DNA from: Fibrobacterota bacterium
GTDB lineage: Bacteria > Fibrobacterota > Fibrobacteria > UBA11236
Reading direction: 5' to 3'
NCBI GenBank assembly: GCA_028287505.1
Contig: JAQBPN010000092.1
Location: 1-64,000 of the forward strand
DNA: 64,000 bases
Every line of letters starts with the position of its first letter. Position 1 is the first letter of the stretch. This document shows, one piece after another, positions 1,454-29,330 of the stretch. Both the position numbers and the translations under genes were made by a program. Under the pieces are notes generated by a model, which did no database searches, had not been told where the DNA came from, and saw only the letters and a program-made list of their open reading frames with translations.

Positions 1454-1466
1454 TAGTGGTGTTCAA

Positions 1467-1515: not shown

Positions 1516-2415
1516 TTGAAACCGAAAGAAGAGATGCGAGAAGTTAATGTAACACAGCTAAACAAAGAGCTATTAGACGATCTGATTTGGCTCCAAAAGA
1601 TTCCCGGGTGTACTAACCTTGGAAGGTATCAAGGGATAAAGGATAGGCTCGAGGAAATTGAGAGAAATTATGACGCCTCAACAAATAGGCTTACTGCTGA
1701 CGCGGCTGAAAAAGACCTCCTACTCTCTAGCTTGGAAGCGTATGAGCTGCATGATGTAATCCAATTTCTTCGGAAACAACCGTCACATTCCCTTCCGATA
1801 AAAAGTCTGCAAAGATTGCTCAATGGACCCGAGTACCATCTCGATGAGGAACCAAAATTTGGCGGTTCTGAGGGTCGGGACATCCAATTCGAGCTAAGCC
1901 TTGGGTCAAGAATTGCCGATTCTGGACTGCAAGTCATTGACTATGATGATGTTGTCGTCAACGTTGACGGCATAAAGGTGGGCTTTCAGTGTAAGCGGCC
2001 TGCCTACTTAAAGACATTGAAGCAAGCCTTTGAAAAAGCAGTCTCCCAACTTGAAAGCCGGATTTCTTCCGGGAGAAATGATTACGGCTTCGTTGCAATA
2101 TGCTTGGATAAAGTCTGCGAACTCGATAAGGTACTTTTCCGAGGAGAGGATCACGAACAGGTCACTGAACGACTAATTTTGGAAAGAAACAAGATTAGTC
2201 ATTTTTTGAGGGCAAACAGAAAATTAGCCAGCTCTAAAAGAATCATCGGCGTGATTCTGAATATTAAAGGATTATTTTTCAACCAGAAAATTGGGCGATT
2301 TAGTCCGGTTAGCGCGATCTTTACCGAACGAACAGAGCAGGAAGGGCCTGCAGGGGAATTCGACCGCTTATTCAGCCTTATAGCCACTCAAATGAAAACT
2401 GGTAGCCCGGATTAA
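1516..2415 (+). CDS. Orphan PD-(D/E)XK nuclease-like protein
   Basis: A 299-residue soluble protein of unknown family, A+T-rich compared with the chromosome. Residues about 120-162 show a PD-(D/E)XK-like layout: a glutamate in FELSLGSR, then a strand with paired aspartates (DYDDVVVNVDG) and FQCKRP, in which Q-x-K replaces the usual E-x-K, a substitution also known from Mrr-type nucleases. The N-terminal third is helical and polar; the C-terminal third may be a target-binding part. The start is uncertain: TTG at 1516 has no ribosome site, and ATG at 1534 follows AAGAAG very closely. It is bracketed by inverted repeats (1467-1485 and 2448-2468) and followed by a large palindrome (2497-2760). 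Nuclease function is an inference from the motif only; a restriction or defence role fits its methylase neighbour 2.3 kb away. Confidence 0.6.
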   Translation: MKPKEEMREVNVTQLNKELLDDLIWLQKIPGCTNLGRYQGIKDRLEEIERNYDASTNRLTADAAEKDLLLSSLEAYELHDVIQFLRKQPSHSLPIKSLQRLLNGPEYHLDEEPKFGGSEGRDIQFELSLGSRIADSGLQVIDYDDVVVNVDGIKVGFQCKRPAYLKTLKQAFEKAVSQLESRISSGRNDYGFVAICLDKVCELDKVLFRGEDHEQVTERLILERNKISHFLRANRKLASSKRIIGVILNIKGLFFNQKIGRFSPVSAIFTERTEQEGPAGEFDRLFSLIATQMKTGSPD

Positions 2416-2447
2416 AGAATTTGGGAGTGAAGAAAACAGGTCCCCTT

Positions 2448-2468
2448 GTTCTTGATTTGGGGGAGTAA
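2448..2468. repeat. Right inverted repeat flanking the PD-(D/E)XK-like gene
   Basis: GTTCTTGATTTGGGGGAGTAA, the inverse complement (18 of 19 bases plus a 2-base insertion) of 1467-1485. It lies 33 bp after the stop codon, just downstream of a second copy of GTGAAGAAAA (2427-2436). Confidence 0.6.
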
Positions 2469-2496
2469 ACTCAGCGCACCGTGTCGGTGCTTGGCC

Positions 2497-2760
2497 TCCG
2501 GCGAACACAACAAGCGGCATTAAGGCGGTTTGCTTCGCCGGCCGCGCAAATGGCTTTCCGGATTGGCCTGGCTGTCCAGATTGAGATTCGAGCGGCGCGA
2601 ACTTCGCAAAAGGCCTACGCCCGCTTGCTCTCACCTCATCTTCACAGCATGTTGCGGACGCTCATTCCGGGGGCGGTAGTGCCCCACTCCATTCGCATCC
2701 TCACATGCAGGCCTAATCCGAAAAGCCACTTCATAATGCCGCGAACGTTGTGTGATATTT
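2497..2760. repeat. Large attC-like imperfect palindrome 1
   Basis: The outer ends ACACAAC (2505-2511) and GTTGTGT (2747-2753) are complementary. Inside them GCGGCATTA (2514-2522) pairs with 2734-2742, and the 20 bases at 2551-2570 (starting TGGCTTTCCGG) pair with 2708-2728 with one mismatch and one extra base. The left arm carries a 28-nt insertion (2523-2550) that has its own small hairpin. Each outer 7-mer matches the integron attC core (RYYYAAC, GTTRRRY) at 6 of 7 positions. The element lies directly after a gene, as attC does. Short frames across it look like chance reading. Bases 2651-2702 resemble 4314-4364 in the second element. No gene is seen in the rest of 2416-2853. Confidence 0.55.
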
Positions 2761-2853
2761 TGGCTCTTAAAGTGTTGGTAATCGAATTCCATCCTCTTAT
2801 CAATATTAAGTACTTATTATTTGGGGGGTGAAGAAAAGAATACAAAAGGAAAA

Positions 2854-4104
2854 ATGGAAAACGAACCCGCCATAAATCTAAACTCATCGATGCCGGTAAA
2901 AGAAAAAAAGAAATCCTCGAAGGTCGAAGATTTTTTTGTGGAGATATCGGCTTTTCTTTTTTGGGTTTACGTAATCACAAAATTATTTTTGTTTGATATA
3001 GACAACTATTTGTTTCAAAAATTCATACCTGGAAATATGTGGGTGCTTCACTACAAGTTAATTTTTATACTTGTTTTCATCGCAGTTGTTTGGTTAGTGA
3101 CAAAGAAAAACTGGATTTATTTTTGGATTTTCTATATTATTTTTTCGCCAGTGTTTCTCCTCTTTTTTAGAATACCCTGGATTTTTTTCAAATCAAAAAA
3201 TTGGATTGGTGCTTTTGCATTGATTGGCCTTGTACTATCCTTCTTTAAAAAATTGAAGTTTAATTTCATTTCGGCAGCACTAACCCTACTAGCTTTTCTA
3301 ACAATTACAAAAGCAACAAACGCGTTACTATTATATGCAGCCATTATTTTTCTCGGCGGGAATCTCGCTGTAATTTTGGTTAGGGCGGTATACTTCTCAT
3401 TCAAGCCATCCGTATTATTTTCTGTTCAGTCAGAAGCATTGGTTAAGCTTTGGGGATTTTTTAAAAAATCGTGCACGCTGGAAGATGAGCTAAAATCAAT
3501 GGAAATTGAAAAATATTCAGAACAACAAAGATTAAAATGGATCACGAACCTACAAACGGCGATGATATTTAATCGCGTTTGTTATTTTGTTTCCTCAAAG
3601 TTACGCGATTTTCAGAAAAGCAAAATCAATATTGTCTATTATGTTCTTAACTTTTTAATTCTTGTCATTGCTACCGTTTTAATTTTTTCCTTTGCCAATT
3701 ATGGCGTATTTAGACTTGACCAGAAAAGTTTCTTCTGGGTAACTGAGCCAAAATTTATTTCGTTTTTTAACTACAGCATCAACACGCTCTTCACAAATAG
3801 CATTTCCGATTTTTATGCTCGTTCCGGTTTCGCTAGGTTTTTAAGTACAGCAGAAATTGTTTGCGCATTTTTTCTGCTAGTAATCATGTTTTTTCTGGTA
3901 ACAACAATTCAAAGTAGTCGCCATAATGAGGAGCTTGATCTTGTAATTGGTTCGATAAATAAGCAAGGAAGAGAACTAGACATTTTTATTGAATCCGAGT
4001 ACAGAATTTCAATTGTAAATGCTATGGAAGAGCTTCAAAAGGCAAAGGCTGGTTTTGTTGGATTTATTTTTTACTTATCCAAAAATGTGGGGGAAGAAAA
4101 GTGA
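2854..4104 (+). CDS. Multi-span membrane protein, possibly channel-like
   Basis: A 416-residue integral membrane protein of very low G+C (19/60 in one sampled line). ATG at 2854 is chosen over an upstream TTG at 2821 because AAAGGA precedes it at normal spacing. The N-terminus is charged, followed by about five hydrophobic segments within roughly residues 40-195, a long soluble coiled-coil-like section (about 200-265), and a C-terminal pair of spans (about 270-295 and 340-370). Between that last pair lies an aromatic and hydroxyl-rich loop, and the second span starts FLSTAEIV and continues with large aliphatic residues. This resembles the pore helix plus TM2 of two-span ion channels, but no TVGYG filter is present. 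A cytoplasmic helical tail follows. No known family is recognised. In a defence setting such a protein could be a membrane-depolarising effector; that is speculation. Confidence 0.7.
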   Translation: MENEPAINLNSSMPVKEKKKSSKVEDFFVEISAFLFWVYVITKLFLFDIDNYLFQKFIPGNMWVLHYKLIFILVFIAVVWLVTKKNWIYFWIFYIIFSPVFLLFFRIPWIFFKSKNWIGAFALIGLVLSFFKKLKFNFISAALTLLAFLTITKATNALLLYAAIIFLGGNLAVILVRAVYFSFKPSVLFSVQSEALVKLWGFFKKSCTLEDELKSMEIEKYSEQQRLKWITNLQTAMIFNRVCYFVSSKLRDFQKSKINIVYYVLNFLILVIATVLIFSFANYGVFRLDQKSFFWVTEPKFISFFNYSINTLFTNSISDFYARSGFARFLSTAEIVCAFFLLVIMFFLVTTIQSSRHNEELDLVIGSINKQGRELDIFIESEYRISIVNAMEELQKAKAGFVGFIFYLSKNVGEEK

Positions 4105-4142
4105 AAAACTTTAAGGCACCCCCCAAAGAATAAGATTGAGCC

Positions 4143-4480
4143 AAAACGATCACACAACAAAGCCCAGCCAGGGCTCCGCGGGTAGCTCCGCATTGCCGGG
4201 CCACAAATGGCCTGGGAAGGCTGCACGGCAATTCAGAATAAGCTGCGACGCTAACTTTCTCCGTTGTCTTTTTCGTTCGGCTTCGTCAGCGTCGCAGCTT
4301 TTCTTCATTGCGGGCTGCGGGTGTTCGCTCCGGGGTCGACACTCCCCACTCCGCTCACATCCTCGCCCATCTTCTTATGTGGTCCACGTCTGCTTGCCTC
4401 ATCCCGTCTTCATTATTTGCTGCTGGCGGGCAAGCCCCAAAACCAACTTCACCCTGCGGGCCCGTTGTGTTCGATGGGAT
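4143..4480. repeat. Large attC-like imperfect palindrome 2
   Basis: ACACAAC at 4152-4158 pairs with GTTGTGT at 4464-4470; GCCC…CAGGG at 4162-4173 pairs with 4452-4461 allowing two extra bases. Inside is a perfect 13-bp inverted repeat, AAGCTGCGACGCT (4240-4252) with 4288-4300, around a 35-nt loop. The segment 4314-4364 is related to 2651-2702 of palindrome 1. It begins 39 bp after the membrane-protein gene. It is more G+C-rich than the genes on either side. Several short open frames cross it but share no coding features. Confidence 0.5.
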
Positions 4481-4742
4481 GCGGGAATAAGAAGCACCAC
4501 ACATCGCGCGCGGCGGGCATTGCTATAAGAAAGAGCCGAATAGAGCAAAGAATCAGCGCTTTTGAGTATATTTAAGGGTAATTTTTTAAGCCGTTTTGCA
4601 GAGCAATTTCGTGGAGTTGGTCCAAGCATCATATTGAGATGGTACTATCAAGATAAAATGCTTGTTCACACACCCGGTAAAAAAGATTGAGACCAGTCCT
4701 TCTCTCAGGTAGACTCTGAAGCAACAGAAATTAGGGTAAGCC
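4481..4742. other. Upstream region of the methyltransferase gene
   Basis: A+T-rich, without a credible gene. It probably holds the promoter for the gene at 4743, but no pair of -35/-10 boxes at good spacing could be picked out with confidence. Confidence 0.4.
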
Positions 4743-7385
4743 ATGCAAAGTGATTATGAAACAGTTCTGGAACTCACTGGGGTAGACCTTTCTCCTGTTG
4801 AATCGAATCGATTGCTTCAGCGCTTTGCATTGGATTTTGGCTGGCAACCTTCCGATACCCTACTTGATCCGAATCTAAATGAATTTTCTAATGGCCACCT
4901 TATTGTAGAGCACGGCCTAGAGAGCGCAGCCGTTGTCACGTTTTTCAAACAGCCAATACGTTACGATGACCTTGGGACCAATGAACGAAAACGTCTCCTT
5001 TCTCTTTCTTACAATAATCTTATTGATTGGCATATTTATGTTGAGTCGGGAAATGTATCTGTTATTTACAACCGGACCGAATCACCACAACTGGTGGCGT
5101 CTAAGAGAGTCACACGACATGATTTCGCGGCCCTTAGACGAGAAGCATTTGAGAAAATAACCGAGGAAAGGCCGACATCAAACCTTCTTGCGCTTGACGA
5201 CGCATTAATATCAACAATTTCGAATTGGAAAAGACTTTTGGCTGCAGAAATCGGTAATCTTACAAACCGACATTTTTCTGCGCTATTTAATTCAATTATT
5301 TTCGCTAGAGCTGCAGAGGACAACAGGCGGTTTCGGAGCGCGCGCGCTGGCGATCTTCAATCAAAGGGACAGGTTTTACTTGCAAAATGGTATTCGGGGC
5401 AATTCGAAACTGTTGGTCGCCTTCTTAATGAAGTCACTATAGAACTTATTGAGGGACCAATCCCAGGATATCTTGCAATAGATTCCGAGCTCGACAAATT
5501 TTCGAGTCTTAGCAAAACATCCGTCGCATCACTCCTTAGCGATTTCTACCATAATAAATATGCTAGCTACTTTGATTATGACTTTTCGATCATTTCCAAG
5601 CACGCATTAAGTAGAATATATGAGCACTACGTTTCGATACTCAGAATAAACGATACGCCTCAGACCAGCCTTTTCCCGGAACTTCCGATTGAACAACAAG
5701 ATCGCGCCTATGGAAGCGTTTACACGCCTCAGTACATAGCACGGTTCTTTGCTCGATTTATTAGCACTCGTTTCACGCAATCCCAAATTTCTAGTTTAAA
5801 AATTGTTGACCCCGCATGCGGCTCTGGAATTTTTCTGAGGACTTTACTCGAATCTTCTGTCGAAGCGGGGTTTCAGCAAGATTCAATCCATCAACTAAGC
5901 TCAATATTTGGCAATATAATGGGTGCTGACGTTGATGAAAATGCGACTTTTGCAACGCGCCTTTCGCTTTCGCTTCTACACCTCGTCCTAACAGGATCGC
6001 TTCCCGATTCATTAAACATCGAAAATGCCGAAGCAATTGAATACTTCAGTACACATAATGAGCATGATGAAGCATTTGATGTCGTAGTTGCCAATCCACC
6101 TTATGTCCCAATTGAAAAACAATCGCAGGAAATGCGAGATAAAGTTTCAACATTTCTTGCAACATTAGCGAGTGGTCGAGTTGATTTGTATGTTCCATTT
6201 CTTTTAATTGCGCTCAAGCTTCTTAAACCGGGTGGATACGGTTGTTTTGTATTGCCACACAGTTTTTTGCTAAGCAAGTCTACTCTACGGATAAGGCAAC
6301 GGCTGAGTGAAGATTGTTACATCCACTGCATAGCCGACCTTTCGGATGTACGAGTTTTTGGTGACGTCGGAGCATACCCGATACTTTTCATTTTCCAAAA
6401 AAAAGCCTCAAAAATCGAACAAATAGATGCATTAGTTGTTAAATGCAAAGAGTTTCCTGGGCAAGCACTGCAAGAAGCGATTATTGGGAAAACCACTGAG
6501 AATAAATTTTTTAGCATTTATAAAGTTACACAGGCAATATTTCAAAGCGATCAGTGGGTAATCCTTCCAGCAGCTGAGCATAGAATAAATCGAAAATTAG
6601 GCGCGCTTCGGCCTTTAAGCGATTTTCTTTATGTTAAGCAAGGTGTTGTAACAGGTGCTGATGATATCTTTTTTAGAACGGCTAGAGATGTAACGAAAAA
6701 GGAAAGAGAAATTTGGATTTCTCTTCTCAAAGATAAGGAAATGCTCCCCTATTCTGTACCGGCAGAAACAGAGCTGCTTCTGTTCTATCCTTTTATTGAC
6801 AATGAAAAGTTATCCGAAAATGTTTTGAGGAAGCGGTTTCCGGAAACCTGGCGATATCTAGTCGCAAACAAACTTGCACTCTCAAAACGAAGCTCATTGG
6901 AGAGGTACGGGAAAACGTGGTGGGAACCAATGTGGCCTCGACTTCCAGAAGAGCTACTCAGGCCAAAATTAGTAACCCCTCACCTTATTTTGATTCCAAG
7001 GTTTTCTATCGATCTCGAAGGTGAAAAAGCTGTTACTCGCTCTCCATTTTTGTACCCAATCGAAAGCGGTGCAGATGAAGACTTGCTAAAATATTTCCTG
7101 GCAATTCTGAATTCTTCAACTGCTTTTTGGCATTTGTCCTCCTACTCGCACCGGTACCGAGGTGGATATTTAATGCTCGAACCAAAAACTCTGAAGAACC
7201 TCCCCGTTCCGGATCCATCGTCGGTAGGCTCAGCTAGTATTTCAAGAATTGTGAAGTTAATTGATAAAAGAATTGCGCCAAAAATTAGTAGTTCCTCAGC
7301 AGTAGAAATCGAAAAGGAAATAGATGATCTAGTTGCGTCTATGTACTCGCTTTCAAAAGAAGAAAGAAAAAGCATAGGGCTCTGA
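4743..7385 (+). CDS. Eco57I-type N6-adenine DNA methyltransferase (possible type IIG enzyme)
   Basis: An 880-residue protein that should methylate adenine in a specific DNA sequence with S-adenosylmethionine. Motif I, VDPACGSGIFL, lies near residue 355 and the catalytic NPPY (VVANPPYVP) near residue 450, the order of gamma-class N6-adenine methylases. The C-terminal half (about 620-850) contains the run WEPMWPRLPEELLRPKL and a region like the TaqI-type target-recognition domain. The first 330 residues are of the kind found ahead of Eco57I-like methylases, but no clear D-x(n)-E-x-K nuclease motif could be seen there, so cleavage is not assured. ATG at 4743 follows AGGGTAA. The next gene starts 3 bp after the stop and is surely co-transcribed. 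Codon use is A+T-rich, unlike the chromosome, which suggests transfer. Confidence 0.88.
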   Translation: MQSDYETVLELTGVDLSPVESNRLLQRFALDFGWQPSDTLLDPNLNEFSNGHLIVEHGLESAAVVTFFKQPIRYDDLGTNERKRLLSLSYNNLIDWHIYVESGNVSVIYNRTESPQLVASKRVTRHDFAALRREAFEKITEERPTSNLLALDDALISTISNWKRLLAAEIGNLTNRHFSALFNSIIFARAAEDNRRFRSARAGDLQSKGQVLLAKWYSGQFETVGRLLNEVTIELIEGPIPGYLAIDSELDKFSSLSKTSVASLLSDFYHNKYASYFDYDFSIISKHALSRIYEHYVSILRINDTPQTSLFPELPIEQQDRAYGSVYTPQYIARFFARFISTRFTQSQISSLKIVDPACGSGIFLRTLLESSVEAGFQQDSIHQLSSIFGNIMGADVDENATFATRLSLSLLHLVLTGSLPDSLNIENAEAIEYFSTHNEHDEAFDVVVANPPYVPIEKQSQEMRDKVSTFLATLASGRVDLYVPFLLIALKLLKPGGYGCFVLPHSFLLSKSTLRIRQRLSEDCYIHCIADLSDVRVFGDVGAYPILFIFQKKASKIEQIDALVVKCKEFPGQALQEAIIGKTTENKFFSIYKVTQAIFQSDQWVILPAAEHRINRKLGALRPLSDFLYVKQGVVTGADDIFFRTARDVTKKEREIWISLLKDKEMLPYSVPAETELLLFYPFIDNEKLSENVLRKRFPETWRYLVANKLALSKRSSLERYGKTWWEPMWPRLPEELLRPKLVTPHLILIPRFSIDLEGEKAVTRSPFLYPIESGADEDLLKYFLAILNSSTAFWHLSSYSHRYRGGYLMLEPKTLKNLPVPDPSSVGSASISRIVKLIDKRIAPKISSSSAVEIEKEIDDLVASMYSLSKEERKSIGL

Positions 7386-7388
7386 GAT

Positions 7389-7976
7389 ATGTCAGAATTA
7401 AAGATTTCGAACGACAACCTTTCGTCCCGTTTTCTAGTAATTCGGCAACGCCTATCTGTACTCCGAACGCATCCGAATAAAGTATCACCCTGGCAGGATG
7501 TCGCAGTTGAGCAGTCACCAAACGGACAAGTCTATATTTTAGGTTCTCATGATGGAATGAAAATCAATGCTACATATCGAGACTGGCGATTTTCAACAAT
7601 TCATAGAAACTTAAAGGCAATGTACTTTGAAATCTGGCAGCCAACGACCGCTCAGCGAATGGAATGGGAACTTCACCAGGCCTATTTTAGCCTATATCAT
7701 CTAGACAGGAACAAGCGCAAAGAACGGGAAGTGCTTTCCATTCATTGCGATCCCTTGGAAAAACTGAGCGCAACCCACTACGAATACAAGCGCGGCCCTC
7801 ATTTACATGTAAGTTTTTCTCCTAGTCCATTACCCGAAGCTCATTTTGGCCTCAATCAGTATGAACTGACTGAAGTACTTTCAAACATTAGCAACTTAGA
7901 TCGTGCGCTAGCTCAAAGCATTCGAATGGTTAGAGACCAGGTATTAACATTAGATTGGGACATTGCTCATACCTGA
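7389..7976 (+). CDS. Unknown partner protein of the methyltransferase (HxH motif)
   Basis: A 195-residue soluble protein starting 3 bp after the methylase stop, so translation is probably coupled. No family is recognised. Conserved-looking elements are a stretch with paired histidines (YKRGPHLHVSFSPSPLPEAHFGL, residues about 137-159), an earlier IHCDP, and aromatic-rich segments (ATYRDWRF, AMYFEIWQP). Clustered His and Asp residues would suit a metal-dependent hydrolase or nuclease, but that is only a suggestion. The tight linkage to a DNA methylase points to a restriction, regulatory or DNA-binding partner role. It shares the low G+C of the island. Confidence 0.7.
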   Translation: MSELKISNDNLSSRFLVIRQRLSVLRTHPNKVSPWQDVAVEQSPNGQVYILGSHDGMKINATYRDWRFSTIHRNLKAMYFEIWQPTTAQRMEWELHQAYFSLYHLDRNKRKEREVLSIHCDPLEKLSATHYEYKRGPHLHVSFSPSPLPEAHFGLNQYELTEVLSNISNLDRALAQSIRMVRDQVLTLDWDIAHT

Positions 7977-8129
7977 GAATATGATTGCGTCCTGGTCACA
8001 GGGTGCCTCACACGTCGTGTGCTCGGCAACCAACGCACCCCCCGCTCGAATACAACAGCAGTCGTGGCGCGTCGCTCGCTCCTCGCTCCTCGATTAGTTG
8101 GGTTTTCTACTCGATCAATTTCCGCAGGA
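7977..8129. other. Possible third attC-like site at the right island edge
   Basis: After the operon end lie ATACAAC (8050-8056) and GTTGGGT (8097-8103). The latter matches the attC core GTTRRRY at all seven positions, the former RYYYAAC at six. CGAATACAAC here differs at one base from CGAACACAAC at 2502-2511. A perfect 6-1-6 palindrome, CACACGTCGTGTG, lies at 8010-8022. The internal arms pair less well than in the first two elements, so this is the weakest of the three. Open frames through this stretch look like chance. Confidence 0.35.
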
Positions 8130-8354
8130 TTCCAATCCACCGTTGCCTACAGGAAAAGCAGGCCCGAAATCATAACCAAAACCAGTCGCAGGGAATCAAC
8201 GAACGCCTTCACCCAGTTGAAGCTTTTGCCGGGTCAAAGCGCGGATATATGGAACGTGCGCGGCGAACGCGAGTATCTATTGCCGAATACGGGAATACAT
8301 TTCATCCGTATCCATGGGCGCCAGGAGAGGGTCGTGAAGTTTTTCCGACCTTAA
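8130..8354 (+). pseudogene. Severed 3' end of an exported-protein gene
   Basis: In the frame ending at 8354 the last 45 codons (from about 8217) read like a C-terminal sorting tail: DIWNVRGERE, then TGIHFIRIHG and RVVKFFRP, similar to the tails of other exported proteins in this window. Upstream in the same frame the sequence degenerates into low-quality reading with no start, signal peptide or domain. The simplest view is that an exported-protein gene lost its 5' part where the island inserted or decayed. The exact left limit is not defined. Confidence 0.35.
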
Positions 8355-8423
8355 AGGGAATCGGAATACCTAGTTTTGTGCAAACGTGTCCTAAGCAGGA
8401 CATGCATACAAAGGACATCCCGC

Positions 8424-10337
8424 ATGCCATTCCCCACCCTTCGACTCCTGTCTTGTGCGGCCCTGATTGCCCTCCTTTTCGGAGCCGGAGGCAGCGTCCA
8501 TGCGTCCTGCGACAAATGCCCGGAGCGGCGGGTCACCCTCTACGATTTCGACGTCACCGTTCCCCGGCCGGACAGCTTGGCCGATATGGCGAACTGGTAT
8601 TTCCTGTTCTATGCGGCCCCGGGAGCGGCGTCGGCGATTTTCACTCCGCAATGCGCCCAGTTCATCGATGCCGCTTTTTACCGCGACACTTCCGGCGTCC
8701 CGTCCAAATCGCTCACGGTGGGTATCGATCATCCCAATACGGCCCCTTCGGGGAGCATGAAAGGCATGGACTACCTGCTCACCGGAACCGTCGGTCCGGA
8801 TGGATCGGGATACAAGCTGACCTTGTCCCTGGAGACGGCATGCGACCGGAAGAAGGTGGCGACCGCATCGGGGCATTTCGATCGGGCCGATCAGGCCTCG
8901 ACCGTCGCGGCGGATTTGGCCCGGCAGAAGTTCGTTCCGATCGCGGAGATTATCCGGTCCTATGAGCGGGACGTGCGGAGCGCGGATCCGCAGGTTTCCA
9001 TCGGGGGATACAATGCCAAGCTCACGGTGGATCCCGCGCGCCGCAAGGCATCCATGGGCGAAAAGATTCCCGTCACCTTGACCTTGATCGACTGCGATGG
9101 GGAGCCCTTGGCGGGCAGGACGATTTCCCTGACGGGCGGCGGTAAAGCGGCTCCGCCATCGTCCAACGGGACCTTCGCCGCCGCCGAAGCGACCACGGGG
9201 AGCGATGGCAAGGTGACGGTCGATTTCACGGTGGGCTCCACCAACGGCACCGCCTTGGCCCGGGCCTATTTTTTCCACAAAACCCCTTTCGGCTGCGAAG
9301 CCGTCGCCGTGGATGAGGCCGCCATCGAAGTGGGCGGAAGCGCCGCGTATTACCAGGTCCGGTACGAGTATGAGGAGACCCATATCATGGAGTCCAAGTA
9401 CAAGGAACAGCCCACGCCGACCTGGATCAAAACGACCCGCAAAACCGATTCCCGGCATACCGTCTTTTCCGGTTCCGCGGTGTTCAAGAACACGGCCAAT
9501 GCTTTGGGCGGCAGTCTCGTCGAGTTGGAAGGCGCCGGCCTCGAGGGCGGTTTGATGAACGGTTCCTATGTGCAGTCGATCCATTTCACCGCGAACGAAA
9601 ACTATTCCGACGCCATCGCGACCATCCGGAGCGCCAATTACGAGGATCGGATCACGGAGGGCGCCCCCATCCGATCCGACAGCGCGCTTCCCGATTTCTT
9701 CGTGTCCCTGGACCCGGATGACCTGGGGGAGAGCTCGCAGTTCAGCTTCACGCTTCCCTTCGCCCTTCACGGCACCGTGACCGGCTATGGGTTCGAAGTG
9801 ACCACGGCGAGCGGCAAGGTGTTCGATACCTCGAGTTCGGTCAACGAGACCAATTCCGACGAGACCGTTTTCGGTCCCGAGATAAAAATCATCAACCATT
9901 ATTCGATGAAGGATTCGGCCTTCCACGTCGAGGGCGCGTTGGATACCGCTTGGTCGGCCGAAGGCACGGATACGGAGTTGCACGGGAAGTTCAGTGCGAC
10001 CGTCGCGCCCATCGCCCTGCGGATCAAGCCAGACGGGATATTTCCGATCCGGGCTCCGGCTCTTCGCCGGGGGCGGATCCGGGTTTTGAACAATGGGGCC
10101 TTGATCGCCTGCAGGCTGCAGGACGTGGCTCCGGAGGCGCGCGTGCGGGTCGAACTCCACTCGCTTAAGGGAGCACTCCTATCCGTACTCCACGATGCTC
10201 CCAGAGGCGCGGAGGGGGAAATCACCCTGTCGCTGGATCAGGCCGGGGTCGAGGCGGGGGCGGGGTTGTCGGTGATCGTGTTCCGCGCGGGAGGTTTGCA
10301 AGAGAGCCGGGTCTTGTATCGGAGCGGAAAACAATGA
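8424..10337 (+). CDS. Exported protein with Ig-like domain, function unknown
   Basis: A 637-residue secreted protein. ATG at 8424 is favoured because AAAGGA precedes it and a clear signal peptide follows (hydrophobic core LLSCAALIALLFGAG, cleavage near VHAS). Residues about 35-190 form an alpha/beta domain (TLYDFDVTVPRP…) that could be related to envelope-associated CsgG/TolB-like modules. A Big-1-like immunoglobulin domain follows (about 190-300, GEPLAGRTISLTG and GKVTVDFTVG). The middle is beta-rich and unassigned. The end, SVIVFRAGGLQESRVLYRSG, resembles the C-terminal sorting tails of other exported proteins here. It stands alone between the island and a convergent reductase gene. Only export and the Ig-like fold can be supported. 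Confidence 0.75.
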   Translation: MPFPTLRLLSCAALIALLFGAGGSVHASCDKCPERRVTLYDFDVTVPRPDSLADMANWYFLFYAAPGAASAIFTPQCAQFIDAAFYRDTSGVPSKSLTVGIDHPNTAPSGSMKGMDYLLTGTVGPDGSGYKLTLSLETACDRKKVATASGHFDRADQASTVAADLARQKFVPIAEIIRSYERDVRSADPQVSIGGYNAKLTVDPARRKASMGEKIPVTLTLIDCDGEPLAGRTISLTGGGKAAPPSSNGTFAAAEATTGSDGKVTVDFTVGSTNGTALARAYFFHKTPFGCEAVAVDEAAIEVGGSAAYYQVRYEYEETHIMESKYKEQPTPTWIKTTRKTDSRHTVFSGSAVFKNTANALGGSLVELEGAGLEGGLMNGSYVQSIHFTANENYSDAIATIRSANYEDRITEGAPIRSDSALPDFFVSLDPDDLGESSQFSFTLPFALHGTVTGYGFEVTTASGKVFDTSSSVNETNSDETVFGPEIKIINHYSMKDSAFHVEGALDTAWSAEGTDTELHGKFSATVAPIALRIKPDGIFPIRAPALRRGRIRVLNNGALIACRLQDVAPEARVRVELHSLKGALLSVLHDAPRGAEGEITLSLDQAGVEAGAGLSVIVFRAGGLQESRVLYRSGKQ

Positions 10338-10355
10338 GGACCATAGGCCAGGTGT

Positions 10356-11369
10356 TTACCCTCCTTCACGCTGATGCGCCAACATCCACCCCGGATACTC
10401 CGGCGGAAACTTGCTCACCTCATCCAGCCTCTTCAATTCCGCCCCCGTAAACTTCACCTCCACCGCTTTCAGATTGTCCTCCAACTGATCCGGCTTCTTG
10501 ACCCCCAGGATTACTGAAGTGACCACGGGCTGGTGCAAGAGCCAGGCCAGCGCCAGACGGGCCACGGTGCTCTGCTTCTCCTGGGCCAGCGCCTGCAACA
10601 CATCGATGACGTTGTACGCCCTTTCCTTGTCTATCGGCGGGAAATCGAAGGCCGTGCGCCGGGAGCCGGGGACGCCGTCATTGCCGCGCGTGTACTTGCC
10701 GCTGAGGAATCCCCCGGCCAAGGGACTCCAGACCATCAGTCCCATGTTTTGGTCCTTCAGGACGGGCACGACTTCCCGTTCCAGGTCCCTTCCCGCCAAG
10801 GTATAGTATGCCTGCAGGGAAACGAATTTTGCCTGGCGAGTGTATTTGGAGTAGGCGGCAGCTTTCATGACGTGCCATGCGGCCAGGTTGCTGCATCCGA
10901 TGTATCGGACCTTGCCGGAAGTCACCAGACCGTCCAGAGTGTCGAGAGTGTCTTCCAGGGGCGTCAGCTCATCGTAGCCGTGGATTTGGTAGAGGTCGAT
11001 GAAGTCCATGTTCAGGCGTTTGAGGCTTGCGTCCACCTGGTGCAGGATATGCTTGCGGGAGAGGCCGGCGCCATTGGGCGTATTGTCCGTTTTGCCGCGT
11101 ACCTTGGTGGCGATCACCAAGTCCTCGCGTTTGAGCCCGAGGTTGCGGATGGCCTTGCCCGTTATCTCCTCGGCCAGGCCTTCGGAGTAGACGTTCGCGG
11201 TGTCGATGAAATTGATCCCGGCTTCTATGCCCCGGCGTAGCAATGCGTCCGCTTCCTGCTGTTGCAAGGCCCCGATATTCTTCCACATCCCCTGGCCGCC
11301 GAAGGTCATGGTGCCCAGGCACAGTTCCGAGACTTTGAGGCCGGTGTTTCCCAACAGGTTGTATTTCAT
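10356..11369 (-). CDS. Aldo/keto reductase
   Basis: A 337-residue cytoplasmic NAD(P)H-dependent oxidoreductase of the aldo/keto reductase superfamily. The catalytic tetrad is visible: Asp and Tyr in FIDTANVYSEG, Lys in VIATKVRG and His in YQIHGYD. The C-terminal part has the cofactor-loop pattern ending SVILGVKKPDQLEDNL. The start at 11369 (MKYNLLGNTGLKV) is preferred because family members begin there and GGATGGA lies upstream; a longer frame to 11420 would add 17 residues. The substrate cannot be told. The gene is convergent with the exported-protein gene and divergent from the lipoprotein gene at 11554. Confidence 0.92.
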   Translation of the reverse strand: MKYNLLGNTGLKVSELCLGTMTFGGQGMWKNIGALQQQEADALLRRGIEAGINFIDTANVYSEGLAEEITGKAIRNLGLKREDLVIATKVRGKTDNTPNGAGLSRKHILHQVDASLKRLNMDFIDLYQIHGYDELTPLEDTLDTLDGLVTSGKVRYIGCSNLAAWHVMKAAAYSKYTRQAKFVSLQAYYTLAGRDLEREVVPVLKDQNMGLMVWSPLAGGFLSGKYTRGNDGVPGSRRTAFDFPPIDKERAYNVIDVLQALAQEKQSTVARLALAWLLHQPVVTSVILGVKKPDQLEDNLKAVEVKFTGAELKRLDEVSKFPPEYPGWMLAHQREGG

Positions 11370-11553
11370 GGTGTTCCATCCGGAATAAGGTGGCTGCGCC
11401 GGGACGTTCAATCCGGGCAAGGCTGAAACTATTTATTCCGAGGGAGCGGGGATACAGGGGCGCGAAGGAATCGCCTGCCAAAATGGCGGCAGCTTGCCGG
11501 TTTTTCTGTTATCTTTTTCACATCCGTTTTGCCCGAGTCCCGTGAAAGCCAGC

Positions 11554-13767
11554 ATGAAAAGAATACTACCGTCCCCGGTTTCCATCGGTCTTGTCCTTCT
11601 CGTTCTGTGCGCCCCGGCATTGCTCCCCCTCGGTTGCCTGGGAACCACGGAATCACGAAGCGGGCAAACCATTCCTCCCGGCTGGTATGGCCCTTTGCAC
11701 AGCCAGGCCAAAACCTCTGGAACCTGGTATTCGGGCTACAATTGTTTTCTCTCCGATGGCCATTTCCAATATCTGGAATTGGGTTTCCGGAAAACCGCGG
11801 GAACCACGGTCCTGTTCCAAGCCACGTGGATGAAAGGGACCTGGCGAGCATGGAGCGACACCTTCTTGATTTACCTCGAGGCCAAGGGCGAGTCTTATTC
11901 ACCGGATGGGTTGGGCAAGGGCTGGCAACAGGAAATCGTTTTCACCACCCTTAAGCCCCAAGCCCCCCGGCCCTTGAACTTCAGGTTGGCCGGCGATACC
12001 ATGATCGCGTTCAATAAACCGGCCGCGTACTTTGATTCCACCATCAAAACCGAATTGCCCGCCGGGGTCGAGTTCGATCCTGCCCGGGTTTCGGAAAACC
12101 TGGTCAAGCAGGTGATTCCCGAATTCCCCGAGGATTCCGCGGCGGTATTGGATTTGGACAAGGTCGCGTACCCCGACAGCTCGAACCTGCCCCATCATTA
12201 TGAAATCCTGGACAGCGGGGGCATTCCGCTCGTTCTGGATCGGAATCTTCTTACCCTGCAACCAAAGCGCGACTTCTATGGCGATCTCCAGATTATCGTC
12301 AAGGCTACCGGATCGGATGGTAAGGGTCGAACCGATTCCCTACGCATCAGATTTTTCAACGTAAATGATCTTCCGGTACTGGTGGAAGCGCAAACAGATA
12401 CCGCCATCCATTTCGCGGCTGAACTTACGCTGCCGTGGAGGCGCCATTTCCGGGATCCCGATGACTTTTGGCTGAAAGGCGCATTCGTGGGGGATACCTC
12501 GAGAATCACTGCCGTTTTTTCGGACTCGATGGTCACGCTTAAGGGAAAAGGGAAATTCGGTCCCGTGCCTATCCGCATCGTGGCGAAAGATGCCATTGGC
12601 GCAGGGGATACGCTGGCCTTCACCTTGAACACCAATGGCCCGGCAACTCCGGGAATCCCGCTCGGGCTTCCCATTTGGAGCGACGATGATATGGCGCCAA
12701 ACATCCTCCTTGAGCGAAGCGAACGGAAAACCATGGCCATCTTCACAATCGATAAGATCTATTTCGTCGACAGCCACGGCGCGCTTATCGGTCCAACCAT
12801 ACCTGTTCCCAAAGCCAAGCCTATCGTGGATTTCGGATTCGATAGGAACAGGATTTTCTTCGATGCCGTGTATGGATCCCAAGTGGATACCATGGCCTGG
12901 CTGCAAGTCGATCCGTCCACCCCACTCTTGGCCAAGCGGGCCTTCATCACATATCCAAGCAGCCTCCAGTCGGGAGGGAATTCCTTCGTGCCGGTACGCA
13001 CATCCTTCGATACGCGGGTATTGTTTACCCACCGATCGACTAAGTACGACTCAGGCAAAGCTTATGGCGTGTATTCCATTGCCGCGGCAACCTCGGGAGG
13101 CGCCTTTCAGGAACTTTGCGTGCTGCCCGTTCCCAGGGCGGCGACCATCCGCAAGGTGGTTGAAACCGAGGCCGGATACCTGGTTTTCTGGTACCTCACA
13201 AGTGACGGCCTGGAAGCGATGACGGTGACCGCGGGCGCATTTTCCAAAGAGGGCAACCCGATTGGAGTCCCCGCCGTCTTATCTCCTTATACCCCGGGCA
13301 CGGTCACCGTTCCGGGATTCAAGCGATGCCATAAAATGCTGCTCGATGCTTTCGTGCTCGACGGCCGCATCGAGGTGCTGCACTCGACCGCCAACGGCAC
13401 CGAAGCCGGATTCGGAGGGAAGTTTTCCGATGCCTATATCATGAGGACGGCGTTCGAAAAAGATTTGTTCACCTCTTCCGCGCCCGAAGTCATACTGCCG
13501 GGAACGGTGAAGCCCGGTGATTATGCAGGCGTCTACCCCCTCCATCTGGGACTGCTGGGAGGATCCCGATACCGGATTTATTGGGGACTTTGGGCCGATG
13601 TCTCCGATAACCCGACCATTGGGGCGGTGACCGTCGATGCGGCATCCAAAACCTATTCCGAGCCTGCCGAAACGCCCCCGGGCAAAACCGTGATGGATTT
13701 CCAATTCGCGGATGGTACCGTTTTCAGAGACTCTTACGAGACACGCGCCGGGGGGTATCTCCCTTAG
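11554..13767 (+). CDS. Large lipoprotein with cadherin-like repeats
   Basis: A 737-residue lipoprotein. The ATG at 11554 gives a signal peptide with lipobox LPLGC. Residues about 190-330 hold two tandem beta-sandwich repeats of the cadherin-like/putative-Ig type, with the linker FNVNDLPVL matching the D-x-N-D-x-P calcium-binding pattern. The second half (about 370-730) has repeated beta blades and may form a propeller. No enzyme motif is visible. Attachment to the outer membrane and a structural or carbohydrate-binding role are plausible but inferred. It faces the GH26-like gene, with 28 bp between the stop codons. Confidence 0.75.
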   Translation: MKRILPSPVSIGLVLLVLCAPALLPLGCLGTTESRSGQTIPPGWYGPLHSQAKTSGTWYSGYNCFLSDGHFQYLELGFRKTAGTTVLFQATWMKGTWRAWSDTFLIYLEAKGESYSPDGLGKGWQQEIVFTTLKPQAPRPLNFRLAGDTMIAFNKPAAYFDSTIKTELPAGVEFDPARVSENLVKQVIPEFPEDSAAVLDLDKVAYPDSSNLPHHYEILDSGGIPLVLDRNLLTLQPKRDFYGDLQIIVKATGSDGKGRTDSLRIRFFNVNDLPVLVEAQTDTAIHFAAELTLPWRRHFRDPDDFWLKGAFVGDTSRITAVFSDSMVTLKGKGKFGPVPIRIVAKDAIGAGDTLAFTLNTNGPATPGIPLGLPIWSDDDMAPNILLERSERKTMAIFTIDKIYFVDSHGALIGPTIPVPKAKPIVDFGFDRNRIFFDAVYGSQVDTMAWLQVDPSTPLLAKRAFITYPSSLQSGGNSFVPVRTSFDTRVLFTHRSTKYDSGKAYGVYSIAAATSGGAFQELCVLPVPRAATIRKVVETEAGYLVFWYLTSDGLEAMTVTAGAFSKEGNPIGVPAVLSPYTPGTVTVPGFKRCHKMLLDAFVLDGRIEVLHSTANGTEAGFGGKFSDAYIMRTAFEKDLFTSSAPEVILPGTVKPGDYAGVYPLHLGLLGGSRYRIYWGLWADVSDNPTIGAVTVDAASKTYSEPAETPPGKTVMDFQFADGTVFRDSYETRAGGYLP

Positions 13768-13795
13768 CGCCACGATTCCCATTCCGTGGAAATGA

Positions 13796-14878
13796 CTAGC
13801 CGGGATCGAACAGCCTGGATTGGAAGCGGGAAGACCGGTAGGCGGATTTGATGCTCTCCCCCAGTCCTCGGAGTGAAAAATCCTCCTTCCCGTTCTGGCC
13901 ATTGTAAAGATTGAAGAATTTGATCCTTTGGTCTCCGGCAAGGCTCCCGAGCGATTGGGCATACCAAGCCTCCTTGGCGCCGCTCTCCGTCCGGTTGGTT
14001 CCGAATTCACCGAGCCCGAAAGCCGGGATCAGCGAGTCCCCTTCGGCCCGCCGGGATTCCAGGAAGCGTCCCATCTCATTGTAAAAGTACTCCATGGCCT
14101 GTTCCAGCGTTTGGGTCCGTTTTTCATGGTGTTCATATGCGTCCACGAAAATAAGATCGGCATATCCCGAACCGGGGAAATATTGGAATGGTCTGTTCCA
14201 GGACCGCAATGGAAAATCCTCGGCGTTGGGACAGAAGACCCAAAGCAGATTGCCCGCGCCTTCGCGGATGAAAAGGTCATGGACATGGCGCCAAGCCTGG
14301 ATGAACTTTTCCGGACCATCGGCACTCCCATTCCCATCGGCATCGCCGCCGCCGGCGTAAGGATACCAATCGCCGTTCATTTCATGGGCGTACCGGAACA
14401 GGATGGGAAGATGGAAATCCCGGAGAACCCCGGCCAGGGCCTTGAGCGACGAATCGAATTCACCCCTATTGATCATTGCGATGAAGGTCTTCTGGTACGC
14501 CTTGTCCGGTTCATCATAATCCTTGGGGTCCAAGGTAACGTAAGGAACGCAGCCTTTGGCATGCGCGGCGTCCAGAAATGATTTCAAATGCCCGGGCCTG
14601 CTGGAAAGATCGAAATAGGCGCCGACCGTGGCCGGATACACTCCCGTCTGTTCATGAAACACTTCGACGTTCGAATCCACCTCCCAAGCGTAATTCATGG
14701 AACGGAATGCGAATTGTACTCCCACTACGCCCTTTGCATTGTCCATCGCATAGCTCTCGACGAATGGGTTTTTGGCGTTCCGGAGCAGAGAAAGGTCGAA
14801 GGTGGTAGGAGTGTTATCCGGTTCGTCCGCGGTTTCGAAGAGGCACGAACCGAGTAGGAATGGACAGATCAGGAACAA
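13796..14878 (-). CDS. GH26-like glycoside hydrolase lipoprotein
   Basis: A 360-residue lipoprotein (lipobox LLGSC) with a TIM-barrel glycanase domain similar to family GH26, which includes beta-mannanases. The acid/base glutamate is in RYAHEMNGDWYPY and the candidate nucleophile in GLGEFGTNRTES; both motifs are in the expected order and spacing. Substrate-side aromatics (FQYFPGSGYADL, VDAYEHHEK) are present. Anchored outside the cell, it would cut a mannan-type or related beta-glycan. The next reverse-strand gene, a DUF1080 protein, lies upstream by 62 bp and may share the transcript. Confidence 0.82.
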   Translation of the reverse strand: MFLICPFLLGSCLFETADEPDNTPTTFDLSLLRNAKNPFVESYAMDNAKGVVGVQFAFRSMNYAWEVDSNVEVFHEQTGVYPATVGAYFDLSSRPGHLKSFLDAAHAKGCVPYVTLDPKDYDEPDKAYQKTFIAMINRGEFDSSLKALAGVLRDFHLPILFRYAHEMNGDWYPYAGGGDADGNGSADGPEKFIQAWRHVHDLFIREGAGNLLWVFCPNAEDFPLRSWNRPFQYFPGSGYADLIFVDAYEHHEKRTQTLEQAMEYFYNEMGRFLESRRAEGDSLIPAFGLGEFGTNRTESGAKEAWYAQSLGSLAGDQRIKFFNLYNGQNGKEDFSLRGLGESIKSAYRSSRFQSRLFDPG

Positions 14879-14940
14879 TCCTGCGGCCGGAATTCGGATC
14901 GCCGGTGGAAAACGAAGGGATGGGTCGGGCCGCCGGCGAT

Positions 14941-15987
14941 TCAGAGGAGACTTATCTTCCTGGTTACGGATCCCGATGCCAGGTCCAGCCGCAGCAAATA
15001 GATCCCGGTCCCGAATCCGCCCGGGAACACGGCTTTGCGGCCCGCTTCGGTGAGCGAGGCGCGGACGATGAGCCTTCCATCCAATCCGATCAGCGAGGCG
15101 CTCTTCACGCCGTTATCCGCCAAGGTGAGCGTAATCGTTCCCGCGCCCATGCGCAGCACCGTATAGCCCGTTTTCCCGGGCATCGCATCGTTCCTGATGG
15201 ATACGGGACTGCAAGTCGATAAAGCCGGACTCGCGGGCCCGAAGCAAGGTTTGTCCGTAATCTTGAGATTCTTGATTTGCCACTTGCCTCCGTGATCGCC
15301 TTGCAGACCCAGATAGCCTTCTTCGATATAGCCGCTTTGGCGGTCGCCCGCCACCTTGTTGGTCAGCCGGCTCTCCGCGTACCACTTGCTCCTGTTATAG
15401 GCCTCCCAGAAATCGGGACTGTGATATTTGTAGCCGGTCACCTTGACGCCGTTCGACCAGTGCTCGACGCTGTCCCCAATCACGATTATGCGCGCCTCAT
15501 TCCATAATCCGGTATTATAGGCGTTATAGACAACGGGGTCCGGGGCATAAAGGTCGTATGCCGCTGCCGGATTGTCCTTGCCAAGATACGTGACGTTATT
15601 GATGGTGTATTCGACTCCCGACTGCCAACTGCGATCATATTGGACTGTGGAACGGTACATTATGCCTTGTCCCCCATCCGTTTTGTAGGTCATCCGGAAG
15701 TCGAAGTCCCGGTAGGTTTTGACGGAGCGGAGATCCGTGGCATTGCCCGACGGGAGCCGGATGCAGGCGCAGGCGGAATCCAGGATCCATTTGGCGCTGA
15801 TGCCGGTGTTGGTGGAATCGCCTTTCACATAGTCGGCCCAGTGGGATTGGAAACCGGCCAAGGTGCCGTCGAAAAGGAGTTCATACCCTTGCTGGACTTC
15901 AATGGGAGTCAGAACATTGTCCGCCGCGCGGGCCTGGCCCGATTGCATGGCCGCCAAAGCGATAGCGCATAGAAACGATCTTTTCAT
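14941..15987 (-). CDS. Exported DUF1080 (3-keto-disaccharide hydrolase-like) protein with sorting tail
   Basis: A 348-residue exported protein. ATG at 15987 gives a signal peptide ending QARA. The DUF1080 jelly-roll domain spans about residues 25-235: YELLFDGTLAGF at the start, FRMTYKTDGGQGIMYRST and YTINNVTYLGKDNPAAAY in the middle, GYLGLQGDHGGKWQIKNLKI at the end. DUF1080 proteins bind or hydrolyse glycans, some as 3-keto-disaccharide hydrolases. The last 75 residues form a beta-sandwich sorting tail ending GIYLLRLDLASGSVTRKISLL, as in type IX-secreted proteins. It sits upstream of the GH26-like gene on the same strand, which fits shared glycan use. Confidence 0.85.
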   Translation of the reverse strand: MKRSFLCAIALAAMQSGQARAADNVLTPIEVQQGYELLFDGTLAGFQSHWADYVKGDSTNTGISAKWILDSACACIRLPSGNATDLRSVKTYRDFDFRMTYKTDGGQGIMYRSTVQYDRSWQSGVEYTINNVTYLGKDNPAAAYDLYAPDPVVYNAYNTGLWNEARIIVIGDSVEHWSNGVKVTGYKYHSPDFWEAYNRSKWYAESRLTNKVAGDRQSGYIEEGYLGLQGDHGGKWQIKNLKITDKPCFGPASPALSTCSPVSIRNDAMPGKTGYTVLRMGAGTITLTLADNGVKSASLIGLDGRLIVRASLTEAGRKAVFPGGFGTGIYLLRLDLASGSVTRKISLL

Positions 15988-16257
15988 CAGAGCCCCCACG
16001 GATTTCCGGCATTACGCGTGCCCGCTCCTTGAATGAGCCGGGTCCGATGGTAAGTTACAGCCAATGGTCCAAGGATGTCCTGCGTCCGGGAATGAATACG
16101 TATTCCGCGGGAGAACAATCTTATCAGCGCAAAAGCTTCCGAGTTGCGTTCGATGGAGTGGGCGTGAGGGAGAAATCAATTCCCGGTGGCATACCCTGAC
16201 ACTCAGGTCAAACCTGGAGGGCCCAATGCCGGAATTGTTTCGCTGGAAAAACTGCAA
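15988..16257. other. Intergenic region, no gene seen
   Basis: Between the DUF1080 start and the RRM terminator. It should hold the reverse-strand promoter for the DUF1080 gene. Short open frames on both strands lack coding character or ribosome sites. Confidence 0.5.
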
Positions 16258-26233: not shown

Positions 26234-26281
26234 AATTATACCCGGGTAATATACATTTGTCAATATTACCCGGGTATAATT
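26234..26281 (-). promoter_or_regulatory. Consensus sigma-70 promoter inside a perfect 19-bp operator palindrome
   Basis: On the reverse strand TTGACA (26258-26263) and TATAAT (26235-26240) are separated by exactly 17 bp, a full consensus promoter. Bases 26234-26252 are perfectly complementary to 26263-26281 around a 10-nt loop. Each arm contains TACCCGGGTA, itself a palindrome, so there are two complete operator sites, one overlapping each promoter box. The downstream gene is DUF2239. No TetR-, MarR- or RHH-type repressor gene lies nearby. Confidence 0.85.
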
Positions 26282-26419
26282 ATCAAACAAAGGGCAAGGA
26301 CCCGCCCCGGGGTTTGCGATTGATGTTATGTTTTAAAGGCCGGTATCCGGGAGACTTTGGATTTCCCGGAGCCGGAAAAGCGGTTCCCTGACCGGGCTCC
26401 GCGCAAGGAGATGAGTCCC

Positions 26420-27022
26420 ATGACCAAGTCCTTATGCCTGGCGATCGCCACCGGATTCACGCTTGCGGCCCTTGCGCAAGCGGCGTCCCCCATCAAGGAA
26501 GCGGCGAAACTCAGGATCAAGCCCCTGGAAGGCAAACTTCCCGGCATCGAAGCCCAATACAACCCGAAGGAAATCACCGTCGACAAGCGTCTGGACTGGG
26601 AAAAGTCCAAGGACAGCCGCGACGATGCTCCCAGCCTGGAATTCAAGGCAGCGGAACCCAAGACCATGAGTTTCGAATTGATGTTCGACACCTTCGAGAC
26701 CAAGGAGAATGTGTACGATAAATTCATCGCGGCGCTGGAGGCGATGGCCAAGAGCGATGAAGGCCTCAAGCGTCCGCCCAGGGTCTCAATCATTTGGGGA
26801 AATGCGTTGCCCAGGTTCGAGGGAGTGATCTCATCGCTCAGCGTCAAATACACCCTGTTCCTGCCGAACGGCACTCCCGTGCGGGCCACCGTAAACGTGG
26901 GACTGCAAATGGCCGAAAAAGTCGCCCTGCACACGCCCCATTGCAACAACGACATCATGGATGAGGATGAGACGGGTCCCGATTGCGGCGGCGTCCTTTG
27001 CCTTCCCTGCAACGTTCCATAG
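26420..27022 (+). CDS. Exported contractile-injection-system tube-like protein
   Basis: A 200-residue protein with a signal peptide (MTKSLCLAIATGFTLAALAQAA) followed by a domain resembling the CIS tube/LysM-associated baseplate protein (Afp7/PVC7-like): IEAQYNPKEITVDKRLDWEKS, TMSFELMFDTFETKENVYDKF, RPPRVSIIWGNALPRFEGVISSL, and SVKYTLFLPNGTPVRATVNV. The C-terminus is a cysteine motif (CNN…DEDETGPDCGGVLCLPC) like the DCGG-x-C-x-x-C repeats of exported myxobacterial and Fibrobacterota proteins. ATG at 26420 has AAGGAG 9 bases upstream. No sheath, spike or ATPase gene is near. A signal peptide on this normally cytosolic phage-tail-like part is odd. It is followed 4 bp later by DUF2277. Confidence 0.75.
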   Translation: MTKSLCLAIATGFTLAALAQAASPIKEAAKLRIKPLEGKLPGIEAQYNPKEITVDKRLDWEKSKDSRDDAPSLEFKAAEPKTMSFELMFDTFETKENVYDKFIAALEAMAKSDEGLKRPPRVSIIWGNALPRFEGVISSLSVKYTLFLPNGTPVRATVNVGLQMAEKVALHTPHCNNDIMDEDETGPDCGGVLCLPCNVP

Positions 27023-27026: not shown

Positions 27027-27332
27027 ATGTGCCGCAACATCAAAACCCTGTTCAACTTCGACCCTCCAGCCACCGAGGGTGAGATCCAGGCCTCGGCCCT
27101 GCAATTCGTCCGCAAGCTCAGCGGCTTCAATATCCCGTCCAAGGCCAACGAGGCCGCGTTCAACCTCGCCGTGGAGCAGGTTGTGGGGGCCGCCACGATC
27201 TTGGTCCGCTCCCTGGTTACCAATGCGCCTGCCCGCAATCGCGAGGTGGAAAAGGCCAAGGCCATGGAGGAGTCCCGGAAACGGTTCGGACCGTCCACCG
27301 TGAAAATCCGGCCTTTGAATCGGGATATATAA
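27027..27332 (+). CDS. DUF2277 family protein
   Basis: A 101-residue protein opening MCRNIKTLFNFDPPAT, the invariant start of DUF2277, and continuing ASALQFVRKLSGFNIPSKANEAAFN. It is a small helical protein of unknown function, probably cytoplasmic. It begins 4 bp after the CIS-tube-like gene with no ribosome site of its own, so it is likely read by coupled translation. An upstream in-frame ATG overlapping the previous gene is unlikely, because family members start at MCRN. Confidence 0.92.
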   Translation: MCRNIKTLFNFDPPATEGEIQASALQFVRKLSGFNIPSKANEAAFNLAVEQVVGAATILVRSLVTNAPARNREVEKAKAMEESRKRFGPSTVKIRPLNRDI

Positions 27333-28744: not shown

Positions 28745-28778
28745 TTGCGTTAATTATTATTTAATTATATTGTAATTA
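28745..28778 (+). promoter_or_regulatory. brnTA promoter with three TAATTA operators at 11-bp phasing
   Basis: TTGCGT (28745-28750) and TATTGT (28768-28773) are separated by 17 bp. The palindromic hexamer TAATTA occurs at 28751-28756, 28762-28767 and 28773-28778, exactly 11 bp apart, so all copies face the same side of the helix across the promoter. Ribbon-helix-helix antitoxins such as BrnA bind tandem sites of this type and repress their own operon. The predicted start of transcription falls at or just after the first ATG, so brnT may be read from a leaderless message or from ATG 28787. Confidence 0.7.
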
Positions 28779-29062
28779 TGCCGGATATGGTTTTCAAATG
28801 GGATACCAAAAAAAATTCCCATAACCAGGAAAAGCATGGTGTTTCATTTGAAGAAGCCAAGTCCGTATTTTATGATGAAAATGCCAGACTTATCGAGGAT
28901 CCGGACCACTCTGAAATTGAAGACAGGTTTATTCTTCTCGGTTTCAGTTCTGCGGTAAGACTACTTGTGGTCTGCCATTGTTATAGAGAGGACGAATCCA
29001 CCATTAGAATCATTTCAGCACGCAAGGCCACAAAATCCGAGACAAGAAATTACTTGAGGTAA
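28778..29062 (+). CDS. brnT: BrnT-family toxin
   Basis: A 94-residue RelE-like ribonuclease toxin. The family opening FKWDTKKNSHNQEKHGVSFEEAKSVF and the closing IRIISARKATKSETRNY are both clear; in BrnT the basic and aromatic residues of these segments form the RNA-cutting face that stops translation. The length is normal. The antitoxin gene follows after 2 bp. The pair is A+T-rich relative to the chromosome, in keeping with mobility. ATG at 28778 or 28787 could be the start, depending on where the transcript begins. Confidence 0.93.
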   Translation: MPDMVFKWDTKKNSHNQEKHGVSFEEAKSVFYDENARLIEDPDHSEIEDRFILLGFSSAVRLLVVCHCYREDESTIRIISARKATKSETRNYLR

Positions 29063-29064
29063 CT

Positions 29065-29274
29065 ATGAGACAGGAATACGATTTTTCGAAATCAGCAAAA
29101 AATCCTTACGCTAAAAGGCTAAAAAAACAAATTACGATTCGGCTCGATGAGGATTCCATATCCTATTTCAAAACCATGTCCCAAAAGACAGGAATTACTT
29201 ACCAGAATCTTATCAATCTGTATTTAAAGGACTGTGCCGCAACCCATCGCAAGCTGTCTTTCAAATGGCAATGA
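29065..29274 (+). CDS. brnA: BrnA-family antitoxin
   Basis: A 69-residue antitoxin with a C-terminal ribbon-helix-helix: the strand QITIRLDEDSISYFK and helix pair QKTGITYQNLINLYLKDCA. The N-terminal YDFSKSAKNPYAKRLKK is the BrnT-binding segment. It should neutralise BrnT and repress the operon through the TAATTA sites at 28751-28778. It starts 2 bp after the toxin gene, the usual BrnT-BrnA order. Confidence 0.92.
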   Translation: MRQEYDFSKSAKNPYAKRLKKQITIRLDEDSISYFKTMSQKTGITYQNLINLYLKDCAATHRKLSFKWQ

Positions 29275-29330
29275 CGGCTCTTTCTTTCCCTGAATCGGTT
29301 TGAAATACCGCTTTCCTTGGCGCTCTTTCC

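Follow-up and report, generated by a model that had tools for sequence, protein, structure and literature searches.

A solitary CIS tube-domain protein with a predicted signal peptide and a myxobacterial-type cysteine tail in a Fibrobacterota bacterium

Afp7 and Pvc7 are baseplate proteins of eCIS, a type of contractile injection system (CIS), in which a tube-like domain (PF19266) is combined with LysM. In the baseplate, Afp7/Pvc7 domains contact both the tube and the hub. In the CIS clusters of a Myxococcota class that includes Kofleriaceae, the Afp7-like gene follows those for the sheath, the tube and a long protein and precedes gpD and gpV. Here we describe a gene of this family that lies outside such a cluster, in a 64,000-nucleotide stretch (hereafter the window) of contig JAQBPN010000092.1 from a Fibrobacterota bacterium (assembly GCA_028287505.1). 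An initial annotation made from the sequence alone had proposed that its product is a phage-tail part reused as an exported protein. The CIS homology, the isolation of the gene and the signal-like N-terminus on which this idea was built all hold, while export itself stays a prediction from sequence.

The gene (26420..27022, + strand; direct reading, ORF and Pfam) encodes a solitary CIS_tube-domain protein of 200 amino acids in an intact frame, the ends of which read MTKSLCLAIATGFTLAALAQAASPIKEAAKL...DCGGVLCLPCNVP. The motifs singled out in the initial annotation are all found where they had been reported: YNPKEI at residues 47-52, FELMFDTFE at 85-93, RPPRVSIIWG at 118-127, YTLFLPNGTPVRA at 144-156 and DCGGVLCLPC at 188-197. 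A Shine-Dalgarno-like AAGGAG, read directly at 26405..26410 (+), is located 9 nt before the ATG at 26420. In-frame ATG, GTG or TTG starts occur at 26420, 26411 and 26357, each of which keeps the hydrophobic stretch, and the sequence between the 26420 start and the CIS domain contains none. Because no later start of these types precedes the domain, the hydrophobic stretch cannot be removed by one, which speaks against the concern that the true start might leave out the signal. The N-terminus consists of MTK followed by SLCLAIATGFTLAALA and AQA and is predicted to form a Sec type-I signal peptide (MTKSLCLAIATGFTLAALAQA, 26420..26482, +), likely cut after A-Q-A. This prediction comes from a rule-based test with a shuffle control, a crude rule that is passed by the N-terminus of this protein, by 58 of the 202 host ORFs called and, after shuffling, by 2.7% of host proteins; the same stretch is of low confidence in the AlphaFold2 (AF2) model. 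The protein is thus a candidate for Sec export.

The tube-like domain of Afp7 and Pvc7 is readily recognised in the central part of the protein (26543..26917, +). Residues 42-166 match the Pfam model CIS_tube over profile positions 22-151 of 158 (E 1.4e-28, 100.1 bits, against a curated cut-off of 27 bits), which answers the profile search called for in the initial annotation; a second, weak Pfam match is to P2 GpU. The nearest PDB sequences are CIS/eCIS baseplate proteins (best 4.3e-11), including Pvc7 (6.5e-10) and Afp7 (3.3e-9). Structure prediction, also suggested at the outset, leads to the same family. In the AF2 model, built on an alignment of 55 sequences from the window and the loci, pLDDT is above 90 in all ten-residue blocks from residue 31 to 160 and low over the signal peptide and the tail. 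A Foldseek search of the PDB with this model retrieves the Pvc7 chain 6j0n_b at 1.7e-12, and the top seven matches are all CIS baseplate chains, from the PVC, Algoriphagus, AFP, Streptomyces and Anabaena systems. No LysM profile matches the protein, the C-terminus of which is formed by the cysteine tail instead; it is a LysM-less baseplate protein of the Afp7/Pvc7 type. Of the 43 positions conserved in cluster copies it retains 34. The last-strand signature K-x-K-E of the cluster copies (K161, K163, E164) has become G-x-Q-M, a replacement that, as judged from the alignment, would fit the idea that an assembly contact was lost.

The cysteine-rich end had been pointed out as a peculiarity of this protein. 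It is indeed present, but it is not an ad hoc extension, being a recurrent module of secreted-looking myxobacterial proteins. The module (CNNDIMDEDETGPDCGGVLCLPC, residues 175-197, 26942..27010, +) contains all four cysteines of the mature protein and, as judged from the myxobacterial consensus and from pattern counts, is a complete copy of C-x-[DN]-x3-[DN]-x2-ET[DG]xDCGG-x(1-2)-C-x2-C. Among 55 module copies from 30 loci, a cysteine occurs at -9 in 54, D or N at -7 in all and N or D at -3 in 53; the tail agrees with this consensus in all cysteines including that at -9, in N at -7, a hydrophobic residue at -5 and D at -3, and in ETG and DCGG. Genome counts with a degenerate DNA pattern for ET[ADEGV]xDCGG-x(1-3)-C-x2-C reveal the pattern in only one of 168 Fibrobacterota genomes, namely this one, and in none of the other 167. 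In one Myxococcota class, 208 of the 308 genomes have it, and a single genome contains as many as 132 matches. The reversed-pattern control has no match in any of the genomes listed. A permissive rule assigns a signal-like or lipoprotein-like N-terminus to 26 of the 30 carriers. Abundant as the ET[DG]xDCGG module is in Myxococcota, it has no Pfam or NCBIfam match in the three repeat-bearing carriers tested; its PDB matches were chance antibody chains and were rejected as an identification, and literature searches retrieved no papers on the motif.

That the gene stands alone, as originally proposed, is confirmed for the host genome. This genome (6.07 Mb in 130 contigs, 98.7% complete) was searched as a whole for the sheath and CIS_tube families and contains a single CIS_tube copy and no sheath match. 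Within the window, profiles built from related loci detect no sheath, tube, gpD or gpV, and no CIS gene adjoins the CIS_tube gene, which is flanked by unrelated genes for a methyltransferase, DUF2239, DUF2277, DUF6515 and BrnT. Five genomes of the same genus lack the CIS_tube gene. The other Fibrobacterota copies read have genes for sheath, tube or gpD as neighbours, and most of them finish with a LysM-like stretch; the native CIS copies of this phylum are a different, mostly LysM-bearing type. Phage records contain no match to the protein, viral contigs no confirmed relative and plasmid records only distant copies.

The contig itself belongs to the host. The DUF2277 gene (27027..27332, +), which starts 5 nt downstream and has no shown link to the CIS-domain gene, is a native neighbour with 72-80% identity to same-genus genomes, and the tetranucleotide signature of most of the contig agrees with the genome; together these rule out contamination. 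In same-genus genomes DUF2277 is present with different neighbours, so that no empty site can be defined. Other features of the window were recorded in passing. Positions 1-16000 have a GC of 0.513 and a tetranucleotide score of 0.575, versus about 0.8 elsewhere, and may be mobile or foreign. A minus-strand sigma-70-type promoter (26235-26290, perfect 12/12) serves the DUF2239 gene and sits within an operator-like inverted repeat, AATTATACCCGGGTAATAT / ATATTACCCGGGTATAATT. At 28778-29280, a BrnT toxin gene is followed by a BrnA-like antitoxin frame in the same direction.

The closest proteins are LysM-less copies from a Myxococcota class that includes Kofleriaceae (up to 48% identity). As a peculiarity, however, isolation does not distinguish this gene, because about 21 loci of the same class carry Afp7-like copies with none of the cluster genes nearby; this call covers roughly 1-4 kb on each side, and since some contigs end close by a few may be cut-off clusters. 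One further locus, L088, was left out of the solitary set on account of the baseplate-like genes beside it. The proposed survey for solitary homologues with signal peptides yielded one, L129, nearly all others of the 21 being without. Several solitary copies adjoin housekeeping genes, and the neighbours recorded include genes for ribonucleotide reductase, CTP synthase, a succinyl-CoA-ligase-like protein and lipoyl synthase; in L072 and L074 the adjacent gene encodes a class II ribonucleotide reductase, and in L075 and L077 a large gene occupies the same position. Some Myxococcota genomes (e.g., G195 and G415; loci L098, L099, L101, L103, L104 and L109) contain two to six CIS_tube matches, most of them in separate CIS-type clusters. 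Among the loci read (318 genomes of the class, 379 of the phylum), no Myxococcota relative has the cysteine tail, and the Myxococcota search retrieved no donor form combining signal peptide, domain and tail. The protein described here is the single known example of a CIS domain with both signal peptide and cysteine tail.

In the phylogeny, the protein is basal to a group of 41 Myxococcota rows, on an end branch of 0.82, and the whole 42-row clade has a support of 100/94. Grouping of its domain with the Fibrobacter copies is rejected (AU p 0.0007), whereas placement with all Fibrobacterota rows, a weaker test on a reduced tree, is not (p 0.135). A single clade of all solitary copies is also rejected (p 6.6e-5), and, with the present copy counted as solitary, the tree requires a minimum of eight switches between the cluster and the solitary state; solitary copies arose repeatedly in Myxococcota. 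On these trees, a Myxococcota origin of the CIS domain is most likely. With both the domain and the tail indicating Myxococcota, transfer into the Fibrobacterota lineage is the simplest account, its direction probably being from Myxococcota to Fibrobacterota. The gene has a host-like composition (GC 57.5%, GC3 0.75, the latter similar to that of its neighbours) and not that of a donor with 73% GC, which means that the transfer is old or that the gene came from some donor other than a 73% GC myxobacterium.

Taken together, the protein is probably a borrowed machine part turned into an exported protein, with its function a matter of inference. In the mechanism we propose, a LysM-less Afp7/Pvc7-type tube domain of a myxobacterial lineage would have been acquired by horizontal transfer, with the signal peptide and the cysteine module either coming along or joining later. 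The product would be exported by Sec and cleaved near residue 21, and its tube domain would fold outside the cytoplasm. Two disulfides within the C-terminal module would stabilise the protein or dock it, either in the periplasm or on the cell surface, and the tube-like beta domain may then act as a scaffold or in binding. Export, both disulfides and this extracytoplasmic role are inferred. The reading as a whole is supported by the following evidence: the PF19266 match, with the Pvc7/Afp7 fold match and a high-confidence core; the signal-like N-terminus behind a well-placed ribosome site, with no start excluding it; the confinement of the mature cysteines to a Myxococcota-type module whose carriers are mostly signal-like; the well-supported Myxococcota clade with rejection of the Fibrobacter grouping; and the lack of a sheath gene in a genome whose native contig carries a copy with most conserved positions kept. 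Counted against it are its status as a single known example, the loss of the three last-strand charges, the host-like GC, the unrejected placement with all Fibrobacterota rows and the missing three-part donor form. On balance, reuse of a CIS baseplate domain as an exported, disulfide-stabilised protein rather than as an injection-machine part has, in our estimate, somewhat the better chance of being right.

A transferred gene that is decaying or neutral, with a product that has no selected role, is unlikely but deserves to be weighed seriously: the absence of the gene from same-genus genomes, its single copy, the lost charges at 161-164 and the end branch all favour it, but the frame is intact and comes with Shine-Dalgarno, signal peptide and full tail module, the conserved positions are largely kept and GC3 resembles that of the neighbours. 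A secreted decoy or antagonist, in which the lone tube-like domain would bind the hub or tube of a rival's or a phage's baseplate and block assembly or firing, seems improbable to us. Afp7/Pvc7 domains do belong to solved baseplates (PDB entries), and the domain comes from a lineage often carrying CIS; nevertheless, the conserved charges are lost, and baseplates are built in the cytosol of the producer, so that an exported subunit would meet finished particles only. Loss of the K-x-K-E signature also speaks against a structural role at the surface or in the outer membrane, in which the protein would keep the ancestral hexameric assembly and build extracellular rings or tubes; we hold this to be very improbable even though the model suggests a retained core fold. 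That the protein works in a CIS, the other genes of which were missed or fall into assembly gaps, as a genome in 130 contigs at 98.7% completeness would allow, and that its N-terminus is no signal peptide in practice, is scarcely credible given no sheath match genome-wide, unrelated flanking genes and native CIS copies of another type.

Beyond reuse as an exported protein in this one host, a broader possibility, which we regard as quite unlikely, is that CIS tube-like domains, having left their clusters repeatedly in Myxococcota, became in a few lineages a new secreted class with an extracellular role, e.g., binding or blocking contractile particles. If so, a dedicated export signal and a cysteine module would be described here for the first time in such a protein. 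The literature that could be covered, which was incomplete and thus gives weak evidence of novelty, nowhere mentions Afp7 proteins that are solitary or secreted. Together with the approximately 21 solitary Myxococcota copies, the protein suggests that one baseplate domain has repeatedly been put to a second use, and it is a small target in which export and cleavage are easily tested.

Compared with known systems, the protein shares with Afp7 and Pvc7 the tube-like domain, both by sequence and by predicted fold, but differs from them in being without LysM and outside a CIS cluster, and in having a predicted signal peptide and a cysteine tail. Its closest sequence group is that of the CIS clusters of the Kofleriaceae class (L026, L027, L028 and L030; 32-42% identity), which also lack LysM; these, in contrast, are encoded between the long protein and gpD/gpV and have no N-terminal signal peptide. 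The solitary Afp7-like paralogues of Myxococcota (L029, L063, L071-L086, L094, L122 and L129) resemble it in lying outside CIS clusters, but none has the cysteine tail and all except L129 are without a convincing signal peptide; L129 also has a signal-like N-terminus, in a genome with no sheath match. Finally, the secreted-looking ET[DG]xDCGG proteins of myxobacteria (L151-L180) carry this tail module with identical cysteine spacing, although repeated up to seven times and in proteins without a recognised CIS domain (three tested, with no Pfam match).
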